This document shows, piece by piece, positions 42,152 to 52,082 of a stretch of 59,582 nt of DNA. Position numbers and translations under genes: made by a program. Below the pieces are notes generated by a model. That model did no database searches. It saw nothing but the letters and a program-made list of their open reading frames with translations, and was not told the DNA's origin. The stretch is from Bacteroidota bacterium (GTDB lineage Bacteria; Bacteroidota; Bacteroidia; Chitinophagales; Chitinophagaceae). Each line of letters opens with the position of its first letter. The stretch's first letter is position 1. The stretch covers positions 1-59,582 of the forward strand of contig JAGWVE010000006.1 of NCBI GenBank assembly GCA_018971025.1, written 5' to 3'.

Positions 42152-42856
42152 ATGCATCCAAGCCCATCAACCTGTCAGCAGTGTGCACAAAGATTTAACT
42201 CTGTGTTTTGCAAGGCAAGGGAAGAGCATGTAGAAGTAATCAATGATAAAAAGGTTTGTAATATTTACAAAAAGGGCCAGCTTCTATTTAACGAAGGCGC
42301 TTACCCATTTGGTGTTTTTTGTATCAACGACGGTAAAGTAAAATTATCGCACCAAGGAGATGACGGAAAAGAACAAATCATTCGTTTGTTAAAAGCCGGC
42401 GATGTATTAGGCTACCGCGCATTATTAAGTGGTGACCGTTACAGTGCTTCTGCCATTGCGCTAGAGGACACACAGGTTTGTTTTATTCCAAAAGATGTAT
42501 TTATAAATGTGTTACAACACGACGCTGGTATGGCTTTTGAAATGATGAAAGTATTGAGTGACGAATTACACCGTTCAGAAATCAAGCTTACACATTTAGC
42601 ACAAAAACCAATTCGCGAAAGACTTGCAGAAACATTGCTTTTTATCAAAGAAACATATGGCTTTGAAGCCGACGGCATTACACTTGCTGTAAAACTTTCT
42701 AGAGAAGAAATTGCCAATTTAGTTGGTACTGCCACAGAATCTACCATTCGTTTGCTTTCTGAATTTAAAAAAGACGGCATGATTGAATTAGACGGAAAAA
42801 AAATCCAAATACTTAAGCCTAAGCAACTTTTAGCTACTGCCAATTTACAAGATTAA
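42152..42856 (+). CDS. Fnr/Crp-family transcription regulator with N-terminal cysteines
   Basis: 234 residues from the ATG at 42152; an upstream frame to 42050 is hydrophobic and covers the promoter. It has a cyclic-nucleotide-binding-type barrel (about 30-135: GQLLFNEGAYPFGVFCINDGKVKL, IIRLLKAGDVLGYRALLSG). A C-terminal helix-turn-helix sits at 183-210 (SREEIANLVGTATESTIRLL) with E196 and R200 at the DNA-reading positions. C8, C11 and C20 form CxxC-x8-C, near the Fnr Fe-S pattern, with C36, C57 or C110 as a possible fourth ligand. It probably senses oxygen or NO and activates the adjacent cbb3 operons. Confidence 0.88.
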   Translation: MHPSPSTCQQCAQRFNSVFCKAREEHVEVINDKKVCNIYKKGQLLFNEGAYPFGVFCINDGKVKLSHQGDDGKEQIIRLLKAGDVLGYRALLSGDRYSASAIALEDTQVCFIPKDVFINVLQHDAGMAFEMMKVLSDELHRSEIKLTHLAQKPIRERLAETLLFIKETYGFEADGITLAVKLSREEIANLVGTATESTIRLLSEFKKDGMIELDGKKIQILKPKQLLATANLQD

Positions 42857-42874: not shown

Positions 42875-42918
42875 ATGACCTTTGTCATTTTTCAATGTAG
42901 GTGCTCAAAATATCTTGC
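42875..42918 (+). promoter_or_regulatory. Fnr-type operator and promoter of the hemerythrin-ccoI operon
   Basis: Perfect inverted repeat ATGAC-CTTT-GTCAT at 42875-42888, the Fnr-box layout (5-N4-5) with a different half-site. The -7 box TATCTTGC (42911-42918, two mismatches to the consensus end) lies 33 bp from the operator centre to its own centre. The operator centre therefore falls near -41, the class II activator position. Confidence 0.62.
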
Positions 42919-42934
42919 ACCTAAATTAAGCAGT

Positions 42935-43441
42935 ATGCTTACGCAAACGGGCGCGATCATTAAACCAACCATAGAAAGTATGTGTGACGATATTGTATCA
43001 TCACATCATCTGCCTATTATGGCCGCTTGCAAATCTGTTTCTAACTTTTTACAAACCAATGCTGTTGTAAAAGACCTTTCTCCCGAAAACACAGAGTTAT
43101 TACAGCTTTTGCACCAAAAATTAGAAGATGAATTAACACATTTATTTTTAAAAGAAACAGGTATTATTTTTCCAAGTATTAAAAATAAATTAGCAGAACA
43201 CGCCCAAACATTATTGGCATCCTCCGTACTTGATTTAGTGTTACATGCCCACCAAGTCATTCTTCAGTTATTACAAAAAGAGCGTCAAATTTTAAATAAT
43301 TATGTTACTTGTTACCATTGGGATCCTGCTTGGGCTAGCGTAGTAAATGAGCTGTTTAGTATCGAAACGATGGTCCATCATTTTATTCATGTGGAGCAGA
43401 GCAAACTATATCCTTTACTTATTAATCCTGAGCTTTATTAG
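42935..43441 (+). CDS. Hemerythrin-like (RIC/YtfE-type) protein
   Basis: 168 residues from ATG at 42935; a start at 42875 would use the operator itself. Histidine/glutamate pairs fit a diiron four-helix bundle: SHHLP near 27-31, HLFLKETGIIFP (H-E) near 80, LHAHQVI near 116, and HFIHVEQSKLYPL near the end. The spacing of the first pair (H-x4-E) differs by one residue from RIC proteins. RIC proteins repair Fe-S centres damaged by NO or peroxide. It precedes ccoI by one base, so both are in one message under the Fnr-type operator. Confidence 0.7.
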   Translation: MLTQTGAIIKPTIESMCDDIVSSHHLPIMAACKSVSNFLQTNAVVKDLSPENTELLQLLHQKLEDELTHLFLKETGIIFPSIKNKLAEHAQTLLASSVLDLVLHAHQVILQLLQKERQILNNYVTCYHWDPAWASVVNELFSIETMVHHFIHVEQSKLYPLLINPELY

Positions 43442-43442
43442 T

Positions 43443-45842
43443 ATGGCTTTTTCTACAGAAACCAAAACAACCCTGCATTGTTTTCACTGCGGAGCCGAAT
43501 GTGTCAATACAAAAATAATTGTAGTAGATAAAAACTTTTGTTGTGAAGGCTGTAAAATGGTGTTTGAAATATTGAATCAAACAGGTATGTGTGGTTATTA
43601 TGATCTAAATCAATCACCTGGGTCATCACAAAAATTTAATGTTCGTACAGATAAATTTTCATTTTTAGAAGATACTGCAATTGAGCAAAGCATTATTAGC
43701 TTTAAAGATGAAAATCAAACACATGTAACTTTTTATTTACCTCAAATACATTGCAGTAGCTGTTTGTGGTTACTTGAAAACCTTCATAAAATAGAGCCAG
43801 GCGTTGTTTTGAGTCATGTAAATTTTGAAAGAAAGGAAGCTGCCATTGTATACAATCACAAACAGTGTTCTTTGCGAAAGGTTGCAGAACTGCTAACACG
43901 CATTGGTTATGAGCCTTATATTAGTTACAGTGATATGGGTAAGAAAAGGCCACGCGTAAACAGCAGTAAAATTTACCGGTTAGGTGTGGCCGGCTTTTGT
44001 TTTGCAAATATTATGCTTTTAAGTTTTCCGGAGTATTTGGGTATAGATCAAAAAGAAGAAAACTTATTAATCTTTTTCAGGTATGTAAATGTGCTCTTAA
44101 GTTTGCCTGTATTTTTTTATAGTGCTGGAGAATTTTACAATAGCGCATGGCAGGGTATCAAACAAAAGTTTCTAAATATTGATGCGCCTATTGTGCTGGC
44201 CATTTGGGTTACTTTTATAAGAAGTTTATTTGAAATATTTTCAGGCACAGGGAGTGGTTATTTAGACTCTATGTCTGGGATCGTTTTTTTTATGTTGGCT
44301 GGAAGAATTTTACAGGATCGTACGCAAAAGCAATTGAGCTTTGAAAGAGATTACACATCTTACTTTCCGGTAGCTGTTACAAAAGTTAATGGCGTTGAAT
44401 CAACAACCCTCGCTCTCCCAGATATTCAATTAGGGGATACGCTTCGTATTCATGATCAAGAATTAATTCCGGCTGATGGTATTTTAACCAGAGGCAATGC
44501 GCTTATTGATTATAGTTTTGTAACAGGTGAGAGCCTGCCAGTTGTAAAAGAAATGGGTGAAATCATTTATGCTGGCGGTAAACAGTTGGGTGGAAATATT
44601 GAGCTTTTGGTTATTAAAGAAGTGGCGCAGGGATACTTAACAAGTTTGTGGAATAAGGATGCGTTTAAAGAAGATCCTTCAAAAGATAGATCTTTTGTAC
44701 ACAACATAAGCTACTGGTTTACATGGGGTGTGCTACTAACTTCATTTGCAGCAGGCATTTACTGGTATTTTACAAATGTCATTGTAATGTGGAATGCGGT
44801 AACAGCTGTATTAATTGTTGCTTGTCCATGCGCTTTATTGCTTAGCAATACTTTTACAAATGGGAGTATTCTCCGAATTTTTTCTAATAATAAATTTTAT
44901 TTACGAAACGCAACTGTCATTGAAAAACTTGCAACAGCAAATACTTTGGTATTTGATAAAACTGGCACCCTTACCACTAGGGCCTATCAAGATGTGGTAT
45001 ATCAAGGTCTTCCAATAACGAGTAGTATTAAAATGAAAATAGGAGCATTGGCTGCACAGTCTTCGCATCCATTAAGTAACGCCATTGCAAATTGGTCCGG
45101 AACAGTAGTGGGTAATCCAGTTATAGCCTTTGAGCAAATACCTGGAAGTGGTATTGAAGGCATGGTTGACGACGATTTAATTACCCTTGGATCTTCGTTA
45201 TTTGTGACTGGAAAAGAAGACAAAATGACCACTTCAGGTTCGGTAGTACATGTTGCAGTTGAGGGTGTTTATATGGGATTTTTTAGACTTCAAAATCAGT
45301 ATAGGAAGTCAATTCCTAGCATGCTACAACGCTTAACAAACAAGTTCACATTACTTGTTATTAGCGGAGACAACGATACTGAACGTAGTTATTTGCGTCA
45401 ATTGTTGGGTCCTAACACTGATTTATATTTTAACCAACAACCTGCAGATAAGCTTACAATCATAGAGGCGTTGCAAAAAAAAGGTAGTAAAACTATTATG
45501 TTGGGGGATGGTTTAAATGATGCAGGTGCATTAAAACAATCGCATGTAGGAATCGCTATTACAGACGATACCAATAATTTCACCCCTGCCAGTGACGCTA
45601 TATTAGATGCATCAAAATTGCCTCAACTAGAGCAGTTTATTCAACTCGCTAAAGCCAACAAGGTAATTGTAATGACTGCATTTGTTATTTCCATTGTATA
45701 TAATATCATAGGGTTGTCTTTTGCAGTTCAAGGACTTTTGTCACCCATGATTGCTGCTATTTTAATGCCCATTAGTAGCATTAGTATTTTGCTTATCAGT
45801 TTTGGGTTCACCCATTTGACAGCTAAATGGCTGTCTTTGTAA
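43443..45842 (+). CDS. ccoI: Copper-transporting P-type ATPase for cbb3 assembly (CcoI/FixI type)
   Basis: 799 residues from the ATG at 43443; the upstream frame overlaps the preceding gene. The N-terminus has a cysteine-rich metal domain (CFHCGAEC ... CCEGCKMVF) and a second CxxC (HCSSC) in an HMA-like fold. P-type features are the VACPCALLL membrane motif with the CPC copper site, the phosphorylated DKTGTLT, GESLP in the actuator domain, and GDGLNDAGALKQSHVGIA. CcoI moves copper out of the cytoplasm toward the cbb3 oxidase. About eight membrane spans are visible. It is co-transcribed with the hemerythrin gene. Confidence 0.93.
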   Translation: MAFSTETKTTLHCFHCGAECVNTKIIVVDKNFCCEGCKMVFEILNQTGMCGYYDLNQSPGSSQKFNVRTDKFSFLEDTAIEQSIISFKDENQTHVTFYLPQIHCSSCLWLLENLHKIEPGVVLSHVNFERKEAAIVYNHKQCSLRKVAELLTRIGYEPYISYSDMGKKRPRVNSSKIYRLGVAGFCFANIMLLSFPEYLGIDQKEENLLIFFRYVNVLLSLPVFFYSAGEFYNSAWQGIKQKFLNIDAPIVLAIWVTFIRSLFEIFSGTGSGYLDSMSGIVFFMLAGRILQDRTQKQLSFERDYTSYFPVAVTKVNGVESTTLALPDIQLGDTLRIHDQELIPADGILTRGNALIDYSFVTGESLPVVKEMGEIIYAGGKQLGGNIELLVIKEVAQGYLTSLWNKDAFKEDPSKDRSFVHNISYWFTWGVLLTSFAAGIYWYFTNVIVMWNAVTAVLIVACPCALLLSNTFTNGSILRIFSNNKFYLRNATVIEKLATANTLVFDKTGTLTTRAYQDVVYQGLPITSSIKMKIGALAAQSSHPLSNAIANWSGTVVGNPVIAFEQIPGSGIEGMVDDDLITLGSSLFVTGKEDKMTTSGSVVHVAVEGVYMGFFRLQNQYRKSIPSMLQRLTNKFTLLVISGDNDTERSYLRQLLGPNTDLYFNQQPADKLTIIEALQKKGSKTIMLGDGLNDAGALKQSHVGIAITDDTNNFTPASDAILDASKLPQLEQFIQLAKANKVIVMTAFVISIVYNIIGLSFAVQGLLSPMIAAILMPISSISILLISFGFTHLTAKWLSL

Positions 45843-45845
45843 AAC

Positions 45846-45889
45846 ATGACTTTTGTCATTGCCTAAAATATTGCAGTAAAATAGCTTTG
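45846..45889 (+). promoter_or_regulatory. Fnr-type operator and promoter of the ccoS-NO-Q-P-G operon
   Basis: Perfect inverted repeat ATGAC-TTTT-GTCAT at 45846-45859, starting two bases before the ccoI stop codon ends... adjacent to it. An exact -7 box TAGCTTTG lies at 45882-45889. The centre-to-centre distance is 33 bp, the same as upstream of the hemerythrin gene, so the operator is near -41. No -33 TTG is seen, consistent with activator dependence. Confidence 0.72.
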
Positions 45890-45906
45890 TAGCTTAATAC
45901 ATCTAC

Positions 45907-46065
45907 ATGAGCGTTATCATTTTATTACTTATAGCTAGCATCAGTGTGGCTTCCCTTTTTTTAGCGGCTTTTATATGGAGCGTTAAGTCGGGGCAGTATG
46001 ATGATGAGATGTCGCCTCCAATGCGTATGCTATTAGATGATACTACTACGCCAAACAAACAATAA
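45907..46065 (+). CDS. ccoS: cbb3 oxidase assembly protein CcoS (52 aa)
   Basis: 52 residues: one membrane span (MSVIILLLIASISVASLFLA, about 2-24), then FIWSVKSGQYDDEMSPP, the conserved CcoS pattern with Trp-Ser and an acidic Q-Y-D-D segment. It is needed for heme and copper insertion into cbb3 oxidase in studied bacteria. Short for gene finders. It ends 28 bases before ccoN. Confidence 0.9.
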   Translation: MSVIILLLIASISVASLFLAAFIWSVKSGQYDDEMSPPMRMLLDDTTTPNKQ

Positions 46066-46093: not shown

Positions 46094-48226
46094 ATGCAGT
46101 TAGAAAAATTCTACTATGATAACAAGACCGTAAAAATGTTTGCATATGCTACTATGTTATGGGGCATTGTAGGCATGCTTGTTGGACTATTAGCGGCGGT
46201 ACAAATTTATTTGCCTGCTGCCAATTTTGGCTTGCCCATCACAACTTTTGGACGTATTAGACCGCTACACACCAATGCTGTGATTTTTGCGTTTGTGGGC
46301 AATGGTATTTTTATGGGTGTCTATTATTCTTTACAGCGTCTATGTAAAGCGCGCATGTTTAATGATACACTCAGTAAAATCCATTTTTGGGGCTGGCAGT
46401 TAATTATTGTTTCCGCTGCAGTAACCCTACTTGCGGGCTTCACAACCGGCAAAGAATATGCCGAACTCGAATGGCCCATTGATATCGCTATTACACTGGT
46501 ATGGGTGGTATTTGGTATTAATATGTTTGGTACTATTTTAAAAAGAAGAGAAAGTCATTTGTATGTTGCCATTTGGTTCTTTATTGCTACATGGGTAACC
46601 GTAGCAATGTTGCATATCGTTAACTCTTTTGAAATTCCTTTTAGTTTTTTAAAAAGTTATAGTTGGTATGCGGGTGTTCAAGATGCCCTTGTACAGTGGT
46701 GGTATGGTCATAATGCCGTTGCCTTCTTTTTAACAACGCCATACTTGGGTATTATGTATTATTTTTTACCAAAGGCTGCCAATAGACCGGTGTATAGCTA
46801 CCGATTGTCTATCATACACTTTTGGGCTTTAATATTTATTTATATCTGGGCAGGCCCGCACCATTTATTATATACAGCATTACCTGATTGGGCGCAAAGC
46901 TTAGGTGTCGTATTTAGTATTATGCTTATTGCGCCGTCATGGGGCGGGATGCTTAACGGTTTGTTTACCTTAAGAGGGGCTTGGGATAAAGTAAGAGAAG
47001 ATCCTATTTTAAAATTCATGGTAGTAGCCATTACCTGTTATGGCATGGCAACTCTTGAAGGACCCTTATTAAGTTTAAAATCTGTAAATGCTATTTCACA
47101 CTTTACCGATTGGACTATTGCACACGTACATGTTGGAGCACTTGGCTGGAATGGTTTTTTAACTTTTGGAATTTTATATTGGTTGATTCCACGCATGTTT
47201 AACACGCCACTATATTCGAAACGCCTTGCTACCAATCACTTTTGGATTGGCACTATTGGTATTATTTTATATGCACTACCTATGTATTGGGCAGGGTTTG
47301 AACAAGCCATGATGTGGAAACAATTTACTGAAGATGGAACTCTTAAGTTTCAATTTTTAGAAACGGTTACGCATATTATTCCACTTTATGTAGTTAGAAG
47401 TATTGGCGGACTACTTTATTTGGTTGGTGCGTTTGTTATGATTTATAATTTAATTAAGACCATTAAAGCAGGCTCTTTTGTTGCCAATGAAGCAGCAGAA
47501 GCTGCTCCTCTTCCTGCTAGCATTGAAACGCACGGCAAACAATACTGGCACCGTTGGATTGAAGCAAGACCTATTCAAATGCTTGTGTTGAGTTTAGTTG
47601 CCGTTGCCATTGGCGGTATATTAGAACTCATCCCTACTTTTTTAATTAAAAGTAATATTCCTACCATCGCATCCGTAAAACCATACACGCCACTTGAATT
47701 ACAGGGTCGTGATATTTATATAAGAGAAGGTTGTTACACTTGCCACTCTCAAATGGTAAGACCATTTAGAGATGAAGTTGCTAGATATGGCGAGTATAGT
47801 AAAGCTGGCGAATTTGTTTACGACCATCCATTTCAATGGGGTAGTAAAAGAACGGGTCCTGATTTAGCACGTATAGGTGGAAAATATCCAGACAGTTGGC
47901 ATTACAACCATATGTTAGAGCCTCAAAGTATGAGTCCTGGCTCTATTATGCCATCTTATCCTTGGTTATTGGATGATGAAATTGATACCGCTATTACGCC
48001 TGCAAAAATCAGAGCCATGCAAACGCTTGGGGTGCCGTATCCCAGTGGTTATGATCAAATCGCCAATAAAGATTTGATGCAGCAGGCAGCTAAAATTGCA
48101 AAATCATTACAAGCAGAAAAGATTGAAACAGATAGTAATAAAGAAATCATTGCACTCATTGCGTATTTGCAAAGAGTAGGCACTGATATTAAAATGATGC
48201 CGCAAACTGAGGCGGTAAATAAATAA
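46094..48226 (+). CDS. ccoN: cbb3-type cytochrome oxidase, fused subunits I and II (CcoNO)
   Basis: 710 residues from ATG at 46094. The CcoN part (1 to about 470) carries twelve spans with metal ligands visible. These are H in RIRPLHTNAVIFAF (low-spin heme b), H in WYGHNAVAFF (copper-B His with the Tyr region), HH in AGPHHLLY (copper-B), and HVHVGALGW (heme ligands). After a linker the CcoO part contains a c-type heme motif, CYTCHSQM, with a distal methionine in QSMSPGSIMPSYPW. Fusion of N and O is typical of Bacteroidota. It is the catalytic core that reduces oxygen at low concentration while pumping protons. Confidence 0.96.
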   Translation: MQLEKFYYDNKTVKMFAYATMLWGIVGMLVGLLAAVQIYLPAANFGLPITTFGRIRPLHTNAVIFAFVGNGIFMGVYYSLQRLCKARMFNDTLSKIHFWGWQLIIVSAAVTLLAGFTTGKEYAELEWPIDIAITLVWVVFGINMFGTILKRRESHLYVAIWFFIATWVTVAMLHIVNSFEIPFSFLKSYSWYAGVQDALVQWWYGHNAVAFFLTTPYLGIMYYFLPKAANRPVYSYRLSIIHFWALIFIYIWAGPHHLLYTALPDWAQSLGVVFSIMLIAPSWGGMLNGLFTLRGAWDKVREDPILKFMVVAITCYGMATLEGPLLSLKSVNAISHFTDWTIAHVHVGALGWNGFLTFGILYWLIPRMFNTPLYSKRLATNHFWIGTIGIILYALPMYWAGFEQAMMWKQFTEDGTLKFQFLETVTHIIPLYVVRSIGGLLYLVGAFVMIYNLIKTIKAGSFVANEAAEAAPLPASIETHGKQYWHRWIEARPIQMLVLSLVAVAIGGILELIPTFLIKSNIPTIASVKPYTPLELQGRDIYIREGCYTCHSQMVRPFRDEVARYGEYSKAGEFVYDHPFQWGSKRTGPDLARIGGKYPDSWHYNHMLEPQSMSPGSIMPSYPWLLDDEIDTAITPAKIRAMQTLGVPYPSGYDQIANKDLMQQAAKIAKSLQAEKIETDSNKEIIALIAYLQRVGTDIKMMPQTEAVNK

Positions 48227-48422: not shown

Positions 48423-49514
48423 ATGCTATTAAATACAGTATCAACGATGTCAAATCCGCTAGCGCAATTGCTGGTGGTTATAATAATTGCATTACTTGTT
48501 GCCATTGGTATACTCGCTTATACCGTAATGGGGGCAGCAGAAATTTATTTACAAAAGTACGAAGCGCATAAAAAAAATATGGGCAATAAAACGCTGTTGC
48601 TTATTGTAGTTATGTTGCTTGGTGCTGGACTGGTTAACGCGCAAACAGCTGCACCTGACGCTGCTACTGCAGTAGTGGCCGCTGCACCAAATATGGGCGG
48701 ATTGTCAGATACAGTTCTCTGGGCGCTATTGTCTGTGATAGGGTTAGAGTTTTTAGTATTATTATGGCTCCTTTTTCATTTGAAGAGCCTTCTTAATTTG
48801 GAATTTGAAAAAATACAGCCTGATGTTGAAGTTCAAGAAAAAAAGCCGTCTCGCTTTTTAGTATGGTGGGATAACATTAATAAATTCAAACCCGTTCATG
48901 AAGAAGCGGATATTGATTTAGGACATGATTATGATGGTATTAGGGAGCTTGATAATCGTCTTCCACCATGGTGGCTGTATGGTTTTTATGTATGTATTGT
49001 TTTTGCAGGAATTTATTTATACCGCAATCATGTATCACACGATGCACCATCTAGTAAAGAAGAGTTAACGATGTCTTTAGAAGCTGCAGCTATAGAAAAA
49101 GAAGTGTATCTAAAAAAGGCAGCCAATAAAGTAGACGAAAATACAGTAACGTACTTGACGGATGCGTCATCGCTTGAAGCAGGTAAAAAAGTATTTACAA
49201 CTACTTGTGCTGCTTGTCATGCGGCCGATGGTGGTGGCATGGTGGGGCCAAACTTGACTGATAATTACTGGATCCACGGAGGGTCAATTGCAGATATTTT
49301 TAAAACCATTAAGTATGGTTGGCCTGAAAAAGGCATGAAGAGTTGGCAGGAAGATTATTCTCCAGTACAGATAGCTCAGTTAGCGAGCTATGTAAAATCT
49401 TTAACAGGCACAAAGCCTGCTAAAGCCAAAGAGCCACAAGGAAATTTGTTTACAGATAGTACTGCAAATGGTACAAAAAAAGATACAATGGTTGCCGCTG
49501 TATCTAAACCCTAA
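48423..49514 (+). CDS. ccoP: cbb3-type oxidase subunit III (CcoP), one c heme
   Basis: 363 residues. Four hydrophobic segments appear: about 12-36, 54-73 (which reads like a second signal, LLLIVVMLLGAGLVNAQ), 97-117 and 186-203. The N-terminal cbb3 domain motif is PPWWLYGFY. After it a single c-type cytochrome domain holds CAACH near residue 262 with a distal methionine in KGMKSW. Many proteobacterial CcoP have two hemes; here one. It sits after ccoQ and before ccoG. The unusual internal signal-like segment may reflect an old fusion or a true topology feature. Confidence 0.9.
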   Translation: MLLNTVSTMSNPLAQLLVVIIIALLVAIGILAYTVMGAAEIYLQKYEAHKKNMGNKTLLLIVVMLLGAGLVNAQTAAPDAATAVVAAAPNMGGLSDTVLWALLSVIGLEFLVLLWLLFHLKSLLNLEFEKIQPDVEVQEKKPSRFLVWWDNINKFKPVHEEADIDLGHDYDGIRELDNRLPPWWLYGFYVCIVFAGIYLYRNHVSHDAPSSKEELTMSLEAAAIEKEVYLKKAANKVDENTVTYLTDASSLEAGKKVFTTTCAACHAADGGGMVGPNLTDNYWIHGGSIADIFKTIKYGWPEKGMKSWQEDYSPVQIAQLASYVKSLTGTKPAKAKEPQGNLFTDSTANGTKKDTMVAAVSKP

Positions 49515-49517
49515 GTA

Positions 49518-50942
49518 ATGAGCCATATAAAGCATAGCAACGAACCATTAACAGAGAATTTTAGAGACAGAATTGCTACCGTAGATGAATCTGGAAAAAG
49601 AAAATGGATTTATGCATACAAACCAAAAGGTGTTTTTTATAATGCCCGAACAATTTTAAGTTTCTTTTATTTCATCATTTTTTTTGGCCTACCATTTGTT
49701 AAAATAGATGGCAGGCCACTATTTTTATTTAATATCCCCAACGCTAAGTTTATCCTTTTTGGTAAAATATTTTGGCCCCAAGACTTTTTCATTTTTGGGA
49801 TTACAATGATCACTTTTGTGTTCTTCATTATTTTATTTACAGCAGCATTTGGAAGATTATTTTGTGGATGGGCCTGTCCACAAACCAATTTTATGGAAAT
49901 GATGTTTCGTAAAGTGGAGTACATGGTACTTGGTGATGCGCCAGCTCAAAGGCAGTTACAGGAAGCACCTTGGCATATTGGTAAAATAACAAAAGTATCA
50001 ATCAAGCATATTTTATTTTATGGCCTGAGTTTTATTATAGCCAATTTCTTTTTAGCCTATATCATTGGCGTTGATGATTTATATAAAATTATTACAGAGC
50101 CTGTATCGCTGCATGTAGTAGGGTTTTCTGCACTGCTTATGTTTAGTGCTGTTTTTTATGCGGTCTATGCTTTTTTTAGAGAACAGGCTTGTACGGTTGT
50201 ATGCCCTTACGGAAGATTACAAAGTGTGTTACTGGATAGAAATTCCATGATTGTAGCCTATGATTATAAAAGAGGAGAGCCTAGAGGTCATGCAAAAATT
50301 CAAGAAAATGTAGGTGACTGTATTGATTGTCATCAGTGTGTTAAAGTTTGCCCAACTGGTATAGATATTCGAAATGGTGTACAAATGGAGTGTGTAGGTT
50401 GTACGGCTTGTATCGATGCTTGCGATCATATCATGGATAAGCTAGACAAGCCACGAGGTCTTATTAGATATGCTTCTGAAAACGCAATTGCAAATGGGGA
50501 GCCGCTTAGATATACCAACCGGATGAAAATGTATACGGCATTATGTTTTTTATTGTTAACGGTTCTTACAGTGTTACTTGTAACGCGTAAAGATATTGAT
50601 GCTACAATTATAAGAACAGCCGGCATGTTGTATCAAGAGCGAGGAACGGATAGTATCAGTAATTTGTATTCTATTAAAATGGTCAATAAAACAACCAAAG
50701 ATGTACAACTGCAAATAGTGATTACAGGTAAAACCACTGGTCGTGTAGAAATGATTGGCGCTCCACTATTACACGTTAAAAAAGAAGCACAAGGAGCAGG
50801 CACATTTTTTATTGTACTTCCTCGTCATTCAATAACCAAAAGAAAAACAGAACTCTCTTTAAATTTATTAGAAGGTTCAAAAGTTGTTGGTGATGGTAAA
50901 ACCACATTTTTAGGTCCAGCAATAAGAAATCACAAACGTTAA
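49518..50942 (+). CDS. ccoG: Cytochrome c oxidase accessory protein CcoG (FixG)
   Basis: 474 residues. Membrane segments alternate with cysteine motifs: CGWACPQTNF (about 115-124), CTVVCPYGRL, and the two 4Fe-4S motifs CIDCHQCVKVCP and CVGCTACIDACD near 270-300. The C-terminal third is a soluble Ig-like domain. CcoG reduces copper for cbb3 assembly and is usually encoded in ccoGHIS. Here ccoI and ccoS are apart in the same cluster. Four bases separate it from ccoP, and ten from the FixH gene. Confidence 0.95.
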   Translation: MSHIKHSNEPLTENFRDRIATVDESGKRKWIYAYKPKGVFYNARTILSFFYFIIFFGLPFVKIDGRPLFLFNIPNAKFILFGKIFWPQDFFIFGITMITFVFFIILFTAAFGRLFCGWACPQTNFMEMMFRKVEYMVLGDAPAQRQLQEAPWHIGKITKVSIKHILFYGLSFIIANFFLAYIIGVDDLYKIITEPVSLHVVGFSALLMFSAVFYAVYAFFREQACTVVCPYGRLQSVLLDRNSMIVAYDYKRGEPRGHAKIQENVGDCIDCHQCVKVCPTGIDIRNGVQMECVGCTACIDACDHIMDKLDKPRGLIRYASENAIANGEPLRYTNRMKMYTALCFLLLTVLTVLLVTRKDIDATIIRTAGMLYQERGTDSISNLYSIKMVNKTTKDVQLQIVITGKTTGRVEMIGAPLLHVKKEAQGAGTFFIVLPRHSITKRKTELSLNLLEGSKVVGDGKTTFLGPAIRNHKR

Positions 50943-50952
50943 AATTAAAATT

Positions 50953-51387
50953 ATGAGTTGGGGAAATAAATTAATCATTGTGTTTATTGTTTTTGCGGCT
51001 TTAATGGCGACACTTGTTTTCAAAGCCACGCAAACAAAATTTGAACTAGTAAGTAAAGATTATTATCAAGACGAGCTACGCTATCAAGATAAAATAGATG
51101 GCGCCGCCAATGCTGCTATAGAAACGCCACTTGCTATTCATGTAAAAGACGGGTATGTTACTATTCAATTTCCAGATGCACAAAAAAAATTAAATATCAG
51201 CGGAGAAGCCTGGTTTTACTGCAGTGTAGACGCTAGTAAAGATAAGCGTATTCCATTAAGCGTAGACTCAACGGGTTTACAGCTTATAGAAAGTAAGCGC
51301 CTTCAAAAAGGAAATTATCTTGTAAAAATTTCATACGAAGCTGCCGGAAAAAAATATTATTCAGCACACCCACTTCATATTCAATAG
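50953..51387 (+). CDS. ccoH: FixH-family cbb3 accessory protein
   Basis: 144 residues: one N-terminal membrane span (about 5-24, LIIVFIVFAALMATLVFKA) then DYYQDELRYQDKIDGAANA, the FixH opening. A C-terminal periplasmic beta domain of about 90 residues follows. FixH takes part in cbb3 maturation together with CcoI. It lies between ccoG and a SafE-type gene with short gaps, in the same message. Confidence 0.88.
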   Translation: MSWGNKLIIVFIVFAALMATLVFKATQTKFELVSKDYYQDELRYQDKIDGAANAAIETPLAIHVKDGYVTIQFPDAQKKLNISGEAWFYCSVDASKDKRIPLSVDSTGLQLIESKRLQKGNYLVKISYEAAGKKYYSAHPLHIQ

Positions 51388-51389
51388 TT

Positions 51390-52082
51390 ATGTTTTCGGT
51401 GCTTTTTACAACAGCTATTGTACTTGGGTTAACAAGCAGCTTTCATTGTGTTGGCATGTGCGGTCCACTTTTATTGGCTGTTCCAATGCGAACAAATAAC
51501 AATAATAATTGGCAAGAAATAGTAGTATACCATGCTGCTAGAATTCTTACCTATGCATTACTTGGTGTACTTGTTGGCTTTGCAGGTTGGCGTTTGCAAG
51601 TGGCTGGAATGCAACAATTTTTTTCTTTAACGATTGGTGTTATTTTGATTGGTTATGTTTTTGCAAGTCGTTTTTTTGCAGGTGCGGCTTGGGTTCTTGC
51701 ATTTAATAAAATAATTTTTTCTTTTTTTGGTTTTGCCGCAAAGCAAAAAGGACAATTAGGCACTTTGTTATTAGGGGTTGCAAATGGACTTTTACCCTGT
51801 GGTATGGTGTATATTGCTTTAACGGGAGCCATGGCTTCTGCGTCAGTTGCTGCAGCAGCCAGTTTTATGCTTCTTTTTGGACTGGGTACTTTACCCTTAT
51901 TATTTGTCTTTAATTTTTATGGGGTTCGTTTACAAGCCTCTGTAAAACAGCGTATTAAGTTAGTGGCACCGATTGTAATTTCCATCATGGGCATACTATT
52001 AGTGCTTAGGGGATTAAACTTAGGGATCCCATATATAAGCCCTCATTTTGTACATAGTGAGGGCGGCGTAGCCTGTCATTAA
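51390..52082 (+). CDS. Sulfite exporter TauE/SafE-family membrane protein, cbb3-associated
   Basis: 230 residues, about six hydrophobic segments. The start FTTAIVLGLTSSFHCVGMCGPLL has the CxxxC pair (C21-C25 region) typical of the DsbD_2/heavy-metal group seen at the end of cco operons. NGLLPCGMVYIALTGAMA is the mirrored half with a second cysteine. It begins 3 bases after the FixH gene. Members next to cco genes are thought to handle copper or thiol redox in assembly (inference from context). Confidence 0.85.
   Translation: MFSVLFTTAIVLGLTSSFHCVGMCGPLLLAVPMRTNNNNNWQEIVVYHAARILTYALLGVLVGFAGWRLQVAGMQQFFSLTIGVILIGYVFASRFFAGAAWVLAFNKIIFSFFGFAAKQKGQLGTLLLGVANGLLPCGMVYIALTGAMASASVAAAASFMLLFGLGTLPLLFVFNFYGVRLQASVKQRIKLVAPIVISIMGILLVLRGLNLGIPYISPHFVHSEGGVACH

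Follow-up and report, generated by a model that had tools for sequence, protein, structure and literature searches.

Does the Fnr-like regulator encoded at position 42152 of a 59,582-nucleotide (nt) stretch of Chitinophagaceae DNA (phylum Bacteroidota; contig JAGWVE010000006.1 of assembly GCA_018971025.1; the whole stretch is termed here the window) control the cbb3 oxidase genes that follow it and, if so, through which sites? An earlier, sequence-only reading proposed that two ATGAC-N4-GTCAT palindromes, similarly placed before the -7 boxes of two promoters, are recognized by this regulator and define a local regulon. The elements in question are:

42875..42888, + strand: operator O1, ATGACCTTTGTCAT; predicted centre -41.5, a proximal position conserved in relatives
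42911..42918, + strand: -7-type box TATCTTGC of the hemerythrin-ccoI promoter, of TAnnTTGY type; predicted start ~42923
45846..45859, + strand: operator O2, ATGACTTTTGTCAT; predicted centre -41.5, a proximal position conserved in relatives
45882..45889, + strand: sigma-A -7 box TAGCTTTG of the ccoS promoter; predicted start ~45894

The answer favored here, to which a probability of about 0.8 is assigned, is that the regulator is a [4Fe-4S] FNR-type class II activator of both promoters at low oxygen. When oxygen is scarce, a regulator dimer would bind to O1 and to O2, each at about -41.5, and would recruit RNA polymerase as a class II activator; this would switch on the hemerythrin-ccoI and ccoS-NO-P-G-H-DsbD_2 genes, yielding a high-affinity cbb3 oxidase together with its assembly factors. 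In most relatives that dimer would be helped by another, bound at about -63.5--that is, 22 base pairs (bp) or two helical turns upstream.

Both palindromes occur where they had been reported, with all four half-sites perfect and with N4 spacers of CTTT (O1) and TTTT (O2). The gap between palindrome and box is exactly 22 nt at both promoters, which bears out the proposed common centre-to-centre distance of 33 bp. The -7 boxes of the two promoters differ in type: both begin TAnnTT, but the Bacteroidota sigma-A motif TAnnTTTG is matched by the 45882 box alone, the 42911 box (TATCTTGC) being TAnnTTGC. In the part of a Flavobacterium psychrophilum study drawn upon here (PMC9723704), TAnnTTTG occupies positions -12 to -5, as does the so-called SM5 box, TAnnTTGY, the median leader is 24 nt, and the cbb3 oxidase is strongly up-regulated under oxygen limitation; its authors think that an alternative sigma factor reads SM5. 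A box at -12 to -5, combined with the 22-nt spacing, would place the operators at -48 to -35 and their centres at about -41.5, in line with the class II position near -41 put forward earlier. With the box position thus taken from Flavobacterium, transcription is predicted to start near 42923 and near 45894, giving leaders of 12 and 13 nt. Compared with the F. psychrophilum promoters described in that same part, the ccoS promoter resembles the sigma-A type, both in its box and in its short predicted leader (13 nt vs a median of 24), whereas the TATCTTGC box of the hemerythrin-ccoI promoter resembles SM5 and is unlike the sigma-A box. A TAnCTTGC-type box is conserved in relatives at the position of 42911-42918.

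Within the genome (2.02 megabases (Mb) scanned, 93% complete, so that a paralogue or a site may have been missed), the perfect palindrome does not recur in many copies at random positions: there are three (42875, 45846 and C15:17172), and each is followed at +22 by a TAnnTT box. By a rough estimate, TAnnTT at a fixed place on either side would accompany three of three palindromes by chance with a probability of ~1e-5 (A and T at ~31% each). In a search for the palindrome plus a box these sites rank first (no mismatches), second (one) and joint third (two), the last rank being shared by C86:29658. This site and C100:32514, the best additional operator candidates, were dropped, as both overlap open reading frames (ORFs), and with relaxed half-sites the counts in this genome are at or near those of the control (26 and 21 vs 21 and 22). 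The third site (C15:17172-17185, or L001:5173-5186) is followed, after 22 nt, by TAACTTTC and then by a gene for a 68-residue YgaP-like membrane protein (PF11127, 8.6e-19). Among eight homologous loci outside this genome (L245-L252), L245, L249 and L250 have a site matching at least 9/10 positions with TAnnTT at 22 nt (in L250 the site stands some 150 nt before the gene), the case of L246 is ambiguous, and four have no site; the gene was found in neither sister genome. Comparison thus only partly upholds this candidate as a conserved regulon member. The putative regulon reaches beyond the window: the third site lies on another contig, and relatives have this promoter architecture in front of hemN, pta, a hydrogenase gene, usp and others.

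Further evidence comes from 80 named loci of relatives, obtained by one scan. In 64 of these ccoI lies within 2.5 kilobases after fnr, with a hemerythrin-like gene detected between them in 50 of the 64; ccoS and ccoNO follow in 60 of the 80. The cco genes lie upstream of fnr in another 10, and six show neither arrangement, some of them owing to a contig end. As judged from such loci, the operator in relatives is an FNR-like box, WTGAY-N4-RTCAT, which is usually present in tandem as [box]-8-[box]-22-[TAnnTTTG], with centres at about -63.5 and -41.5 (for example, ATGACAAAAATCAT-8 nt-TTGAGTACTGTCAT-22 nt-box). Hence the ATGAC half-site is not the special code that it had been taken for, since the relatives' consensus is close to the FNR box, TTGAT-N4-ATCAA. 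The core TGA-N6-TCA within the 14 bp is present both in the window and in relatives; the outer half-site bases of the FNR box (T and T) are not matched, the window having ATGAC and the relatives' distal site A/C-TGA-C/T, and the relatives' proximal site is mostly TTGAG or TTGAT.

Sites matching at least 9/10 positions were classed as proximal (a box at +22) or distal (at +44). At the first promoter, among 81 stretches after fnr, 53 are tandem, three are proximal only (the window, L070 and L071), one is distal only, and 24 have no site so placed, these last comprising 10 with cco upstream of fnr, four with no cco beside it and 10 with ccoI after it; L096 has a perfect palindrome with no called box. 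The 57 classed loci have TAnnTTGY in 36 cases (32 tandem, three proximal, one distal), TAnnTTTG in 19, and TAnnTTT with another last base in two; in 35 of the 81 stretches a proximal site is followed at 22 nt by TAnnTTGY. At the second promoter, the 66 loci with ccoS (window included) comprise 29 tandem, six proximal-only, three distal-only and 28 unclassed cases. Among the unclassed, five (L128, L129, L131, L132, L148) have two sites 22 bp apart and L090, L142 and L143 a single site, in each case with no called box; in L100 and L101 the site is one base off (45); and 18 Chitinophaga loci (L108-L126, L147) have no operator within 160 nt before ccoS. In these Chitinophaga loci ccoI and ccoS are often further apart, and operators are seen after fnr, before the hemerythrin gene or ccoI.

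These site counts use a consensus drawn from the loci themselves; independent tests come from the spacing controls given below and from the following shuffles. Among 33 loci (32 relatives and the window) de-duplicated at 90% Fnr identity, the best 10/10 site has a box at +22 or +44 in 15 cases at the first promoter (21 regions with such a site) and in 11 at the second (14 regions), a count that leaves the window's own first promoter and L096 unclassed. When the downstream 75 nt are shuffled, the means are 0.19 and 0.17 boxes and the maximum in 1000 shuffles is 3. Paired sites are spaced by 22 bp in 14 of 15 cases at the first promoter and in 11 of 11 at the second. Such strict spacing also bears on whether the palindromes might instead serve repression, a protein at -41.5 blocking polymerase at high oxygen or in another state. 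A protein bound there would cover a putative -33 element, and position by itself does not fix the sign of regulation; yet the arrangement of a fixed -41.5 site and another two turns further upstream is typical of activated promoters, and single-site ccoS promoters have a better -7 box than their tandem kin (see below), as expected if an activator's help had been lost. Repression is accordingly considered very improbable.

Activation by an FNR-type protein is consistent with the features of the regulator itself, which scores above the cut-offs of PF00027, PF13545 and PF00325 and which, as the sequence-only reading had noted, is encoded just upstream; it carries a four-cysteine signature. It is the sole Crp/Fnr protein found in the genome, a protein search giving one match; the only other HTH_Crp_2 match, on C14, was rejected, being under the cut-off (25 bits) and, by eye, GntR/FadR-like. 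FNR regulation is textbook knowledge in Proteobacteria. The cluster ligands of E. coli FNR are C20, C23, C29 and C122, its recognition helix reads E209-x2-S212-R213, and at class II promoters it is centred at -41.5 on sites with the core TGA-N6-TCA. The window regulator has N-terminal cysteines (CxxC-x8-C) at residues 8, 11 and 20 and a central C110; upon alignment, C8, C11 and C20 fall on C16, C20 and C29 of E. coli FNR, C110 on C122, E196 on E209, I199 on S212 and R200 on R213. Eight residues are invariant across the window sequence and those of 80 relatives (81 sequences): C8, C11, C20, C57, C110, E196, I199 and R200; C57, a further cysteine, aligns with an alanine of E. coli FNR. Thus the two systems share the fold, three N-terminal and one central cysteine, the E209 and R213 positions, the core motif and, by prediction, the class II centre; they differ in ligand spacing (C-x2-C-x5-C vs C-x2-C-x8-C), in the isoleucine at S212, in the half-site (TTGAT vs WTGAY), in the Bacteroidota -7 box and in the relatives' tandem sites 22 bp apart. 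The FNR-type control of cbb3 genes by FnrL/FixK in Alphaproteobacteria is alike, the comparison here being by NCBIfam scores only. A search of the open-licence PubMed Central literature, mostly at listing level, found no paper on a Bacteroidota FNR operator. The part of PMC8510549 considered here predicts MalR-like Crp/Fnr proteins in Flavobacteriales and Saprospiraceae.

Several observations weigh against this assignment. The recognition-helix pattern of E. coli FNR is not matched, the S212 position being isoleucine in 81/81 sequences, for which reason the protein is termed FNR-like rather than an E. coli-type FNR; the N-terminal cysteines are spaced unlike those of E. coli FNR, though their number agrees; and the NCBIfam Fnr and FnrL models give 87.3 of 228 bits and 77.3 of 300 bits, far under their cut-offs. 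Palindrome numbers are no help: against a reversed-pattern control there are 3 vs 1 perfect palindromes in this genome and 3 vs 5 and 5 vs 2 in the two sister genomes, and with at most one mismatch 38 vs 67 in this genome. Moreover, four of the eight perfect palindromes in the sister genomes lack a box at +22, the other four being the same two promoters, with boxes. Enrichment by number alone was therefore rejected, since the counts do not clearly exceed those of the control; the geometry, unlike the count, is above chance. The perfect-palindrome counts are also what would favor chance palindromes lacking any function, but position and spacing are conserved over many lineages (15 and 11 boxes vs a shuffled maximum of 3), so that this explanation deserves next to no credence. 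Finally, a match to the regulator at E ≤ 1e-65 occurs in only 36 of 147 family genomes, vs 106 of 144 with the tandem composite (at most two mismatches), so that other Crp/Fnr proteins must use similar sites there.

Altered forms of the composite are much rarer: the reversed pattern occurs in 0/144 of these genomes, whose family is taken to be Chitinophagaceae from the names of relatives, the pattern with the box 5 nt further away in 13/144 and that with the sites 5 nt further apart in 3/144. Several Crp/Fnr proteins are encoded in many of the genomes that contain tandem sites, so that the binding protein is clear only where a single one was found, as here. Three genomes (G045, G005 and G124) have 27, 15 and 11 composite matches and no close orthologue of the regulator, which is probably due to a large regulon of another Crp/Fnr protein. 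In the part of all matches that was inspected (60 loci, in two sets of 30 with some overlap), the commonest downstream gene is, by eye, ccoS-like. Twelve other downstream proteins were scanned (NCBIfam and/or Pfam): NCBIfam cut-offs were passed by hemN (TIGR00538), a hydrogenase small subunit (TIGR00391) and pta (NF004167; cut by the locus end), and Pfam cut-offs by Usp, YceI, a pyridoxamine oxidase-like protein, a cytochrome c and a further Crp/Fnr protein; a 63-residue ORF (L206) and the L174 protein had no Pfam match, and the L171 and L154 proteins had none in NCBIfam, the sole library scanned for them. At some loci two divergent genes have a single tandem pair between them that serves both directions: the site proximal to one gene is the distal site of its neighbour. 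In L206, L222 and L223 (~1501-1600) the tandem pair is common to a divergent hydrogenase small-subunit gene and the 63-residue ORF (MKK...AHPGHG...).

Against this tandem background the window lineage shows a single perfect site, which occupies the -41.5 position. In the Fnr gene tree, a single site at ccoS requires three changes, all forced by well-supported branches, for a count that took classed rows only and in which changes could be gains or losses. The three groups are the window with L070 and L071, L089, and L096 with L097, each keeping the 22-nt spacing. The simplest reading is that sites were lost three times within tandem clades and that the single site is derived; tandem is the commoner state. 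L088 (tandem) and L089 (single) have Fnr proteins identical at 230/234 positions; the two promoters differ by a net deletion of 22 bp (7+15), located between the distal site and the box, which brings that site to +22. Aligned with L079, the window's first promoter has a left half corresponding to the distal and a right half to the proximal site, with 22 bp (16+6) missing; a hybrid site in the window is put forward as a proposal, because the L080 and L090 alignments place the gaps otherwise, and the window's ccoS promoter aligns less clearly than its first.

Within a 30-row clade, the ccoS box is TAnnTTTA in 21/21 tandem rows and TAnnTTTG in 6/6 single-site rows, 27 of the 30 being classed (L076 and L093 have no ccoS in the locus, L090 no box). 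Fisher's test gives p = 3.4e-6 but takes no account of kinship; counted fairly, there are three reductions, each with a G box. The G box is not peculiar to single sites, since tandem promoters with TAnnTTTG exist outside the clade (8 at ccoS, 19 at the first promoter). The window genome and its two sisters (2.0-2.2 Mb) have no tandem composites with up to three mismatches, whereas four relatives of 3.7-4.3 Mb have 4 to 10 matches; genome streamlining is a likely setting of the putative reduction. A broader generalization, offered tentatively and as somewhat doubtful, is that Chitinophagaceae, and perhaps Bacteroidota, possess a stereotyped class of low-oxygen promoter on which two FNR-type dimers sit 22 bp apart, at -63.5 and -41.5; that genomes may lose one 22-bp unit of this arrangement, each such loss being offset by restoration of the final base of the -7 box, which would make activator number and core-promoter strength trade off; and that the hemerythrin-ccoI promoter might join the same activator to a second sigma factor. 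The repeated tandem-to-single reduction would be a natural experiment on activator number vs core-promoter strength, and the operator, the fixed geometry and a first list of targets make oxygen control in Bacteroidota directly testable.

The regulator and its proposed target genes in the window are as follows:

42152..42856, + strand: Fnr-like regulator, 234 amino acids (Pfam cNMP_binding, HTH_Crp_2)
42935..43441, + strand: RIC/ScdA/YtfE-like hemerythrin-type protein, 168 amino acids (profile matches to ScdA, 1.7e-6, and YtfE, 5e-4, chains)
43443..45842, + strand: ccoI-type heavy-metal P-type ATPase (Pfam and NCBIfam scans)
45907..46065, + strand: ccoS (FixS, 6.7e-18; TIGR00847 over cut-off)
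46094..48226, + strand: ccoNO fusion (Pfam and NCBIfam scans)
48423..49514, + strand: ccoP (FixP_N and Cytochrome_CBB3 over Pfam cut-off; TIGR00782 under its cut-off)
49518..50942, + strand: ccoG (TIGR02745 over cut-off)
50953..51387, + strand: ccoH (FixH; Pfam scan)
51390..52082, + strand: DsbD_2-type membrane protein, called SafE in the sequence-only reading (Pfam scan)

RIC/ScdA proteins are an Fe-S repair family linked to nitric oxide (NO) and oxidative stress, and the adjacent operon begins with a RIC/ScdA-like gene. This raises the alternative that the FNR-fold regulator senses NO or redox stress, rather than oxygen, through the same operators, with the RIC-like hemerythrin as its main target. 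It is unlikely: the targets in relatives--cbb3, hemN, pta and hydrogenase--are the usual low-oxygen set, and the central cysteine aligns with C122 of FNR. The two signals are not exclusive, because FNR clusters also react with NO.

The hemerythrin-type protein has no Pfam match and scores 38.6 bits (9.7e-10) against TIGR03652, far under the cut-off of 204.7; its gene was not detected by tblastn in five Chitinophaga loci (L114-L118). It is shorter than ScdA and YtfE and fast-evolving, its identity to the L080, L075 and L078 proteins being 41-43%, whereas their Fnr keeps 81-85%.

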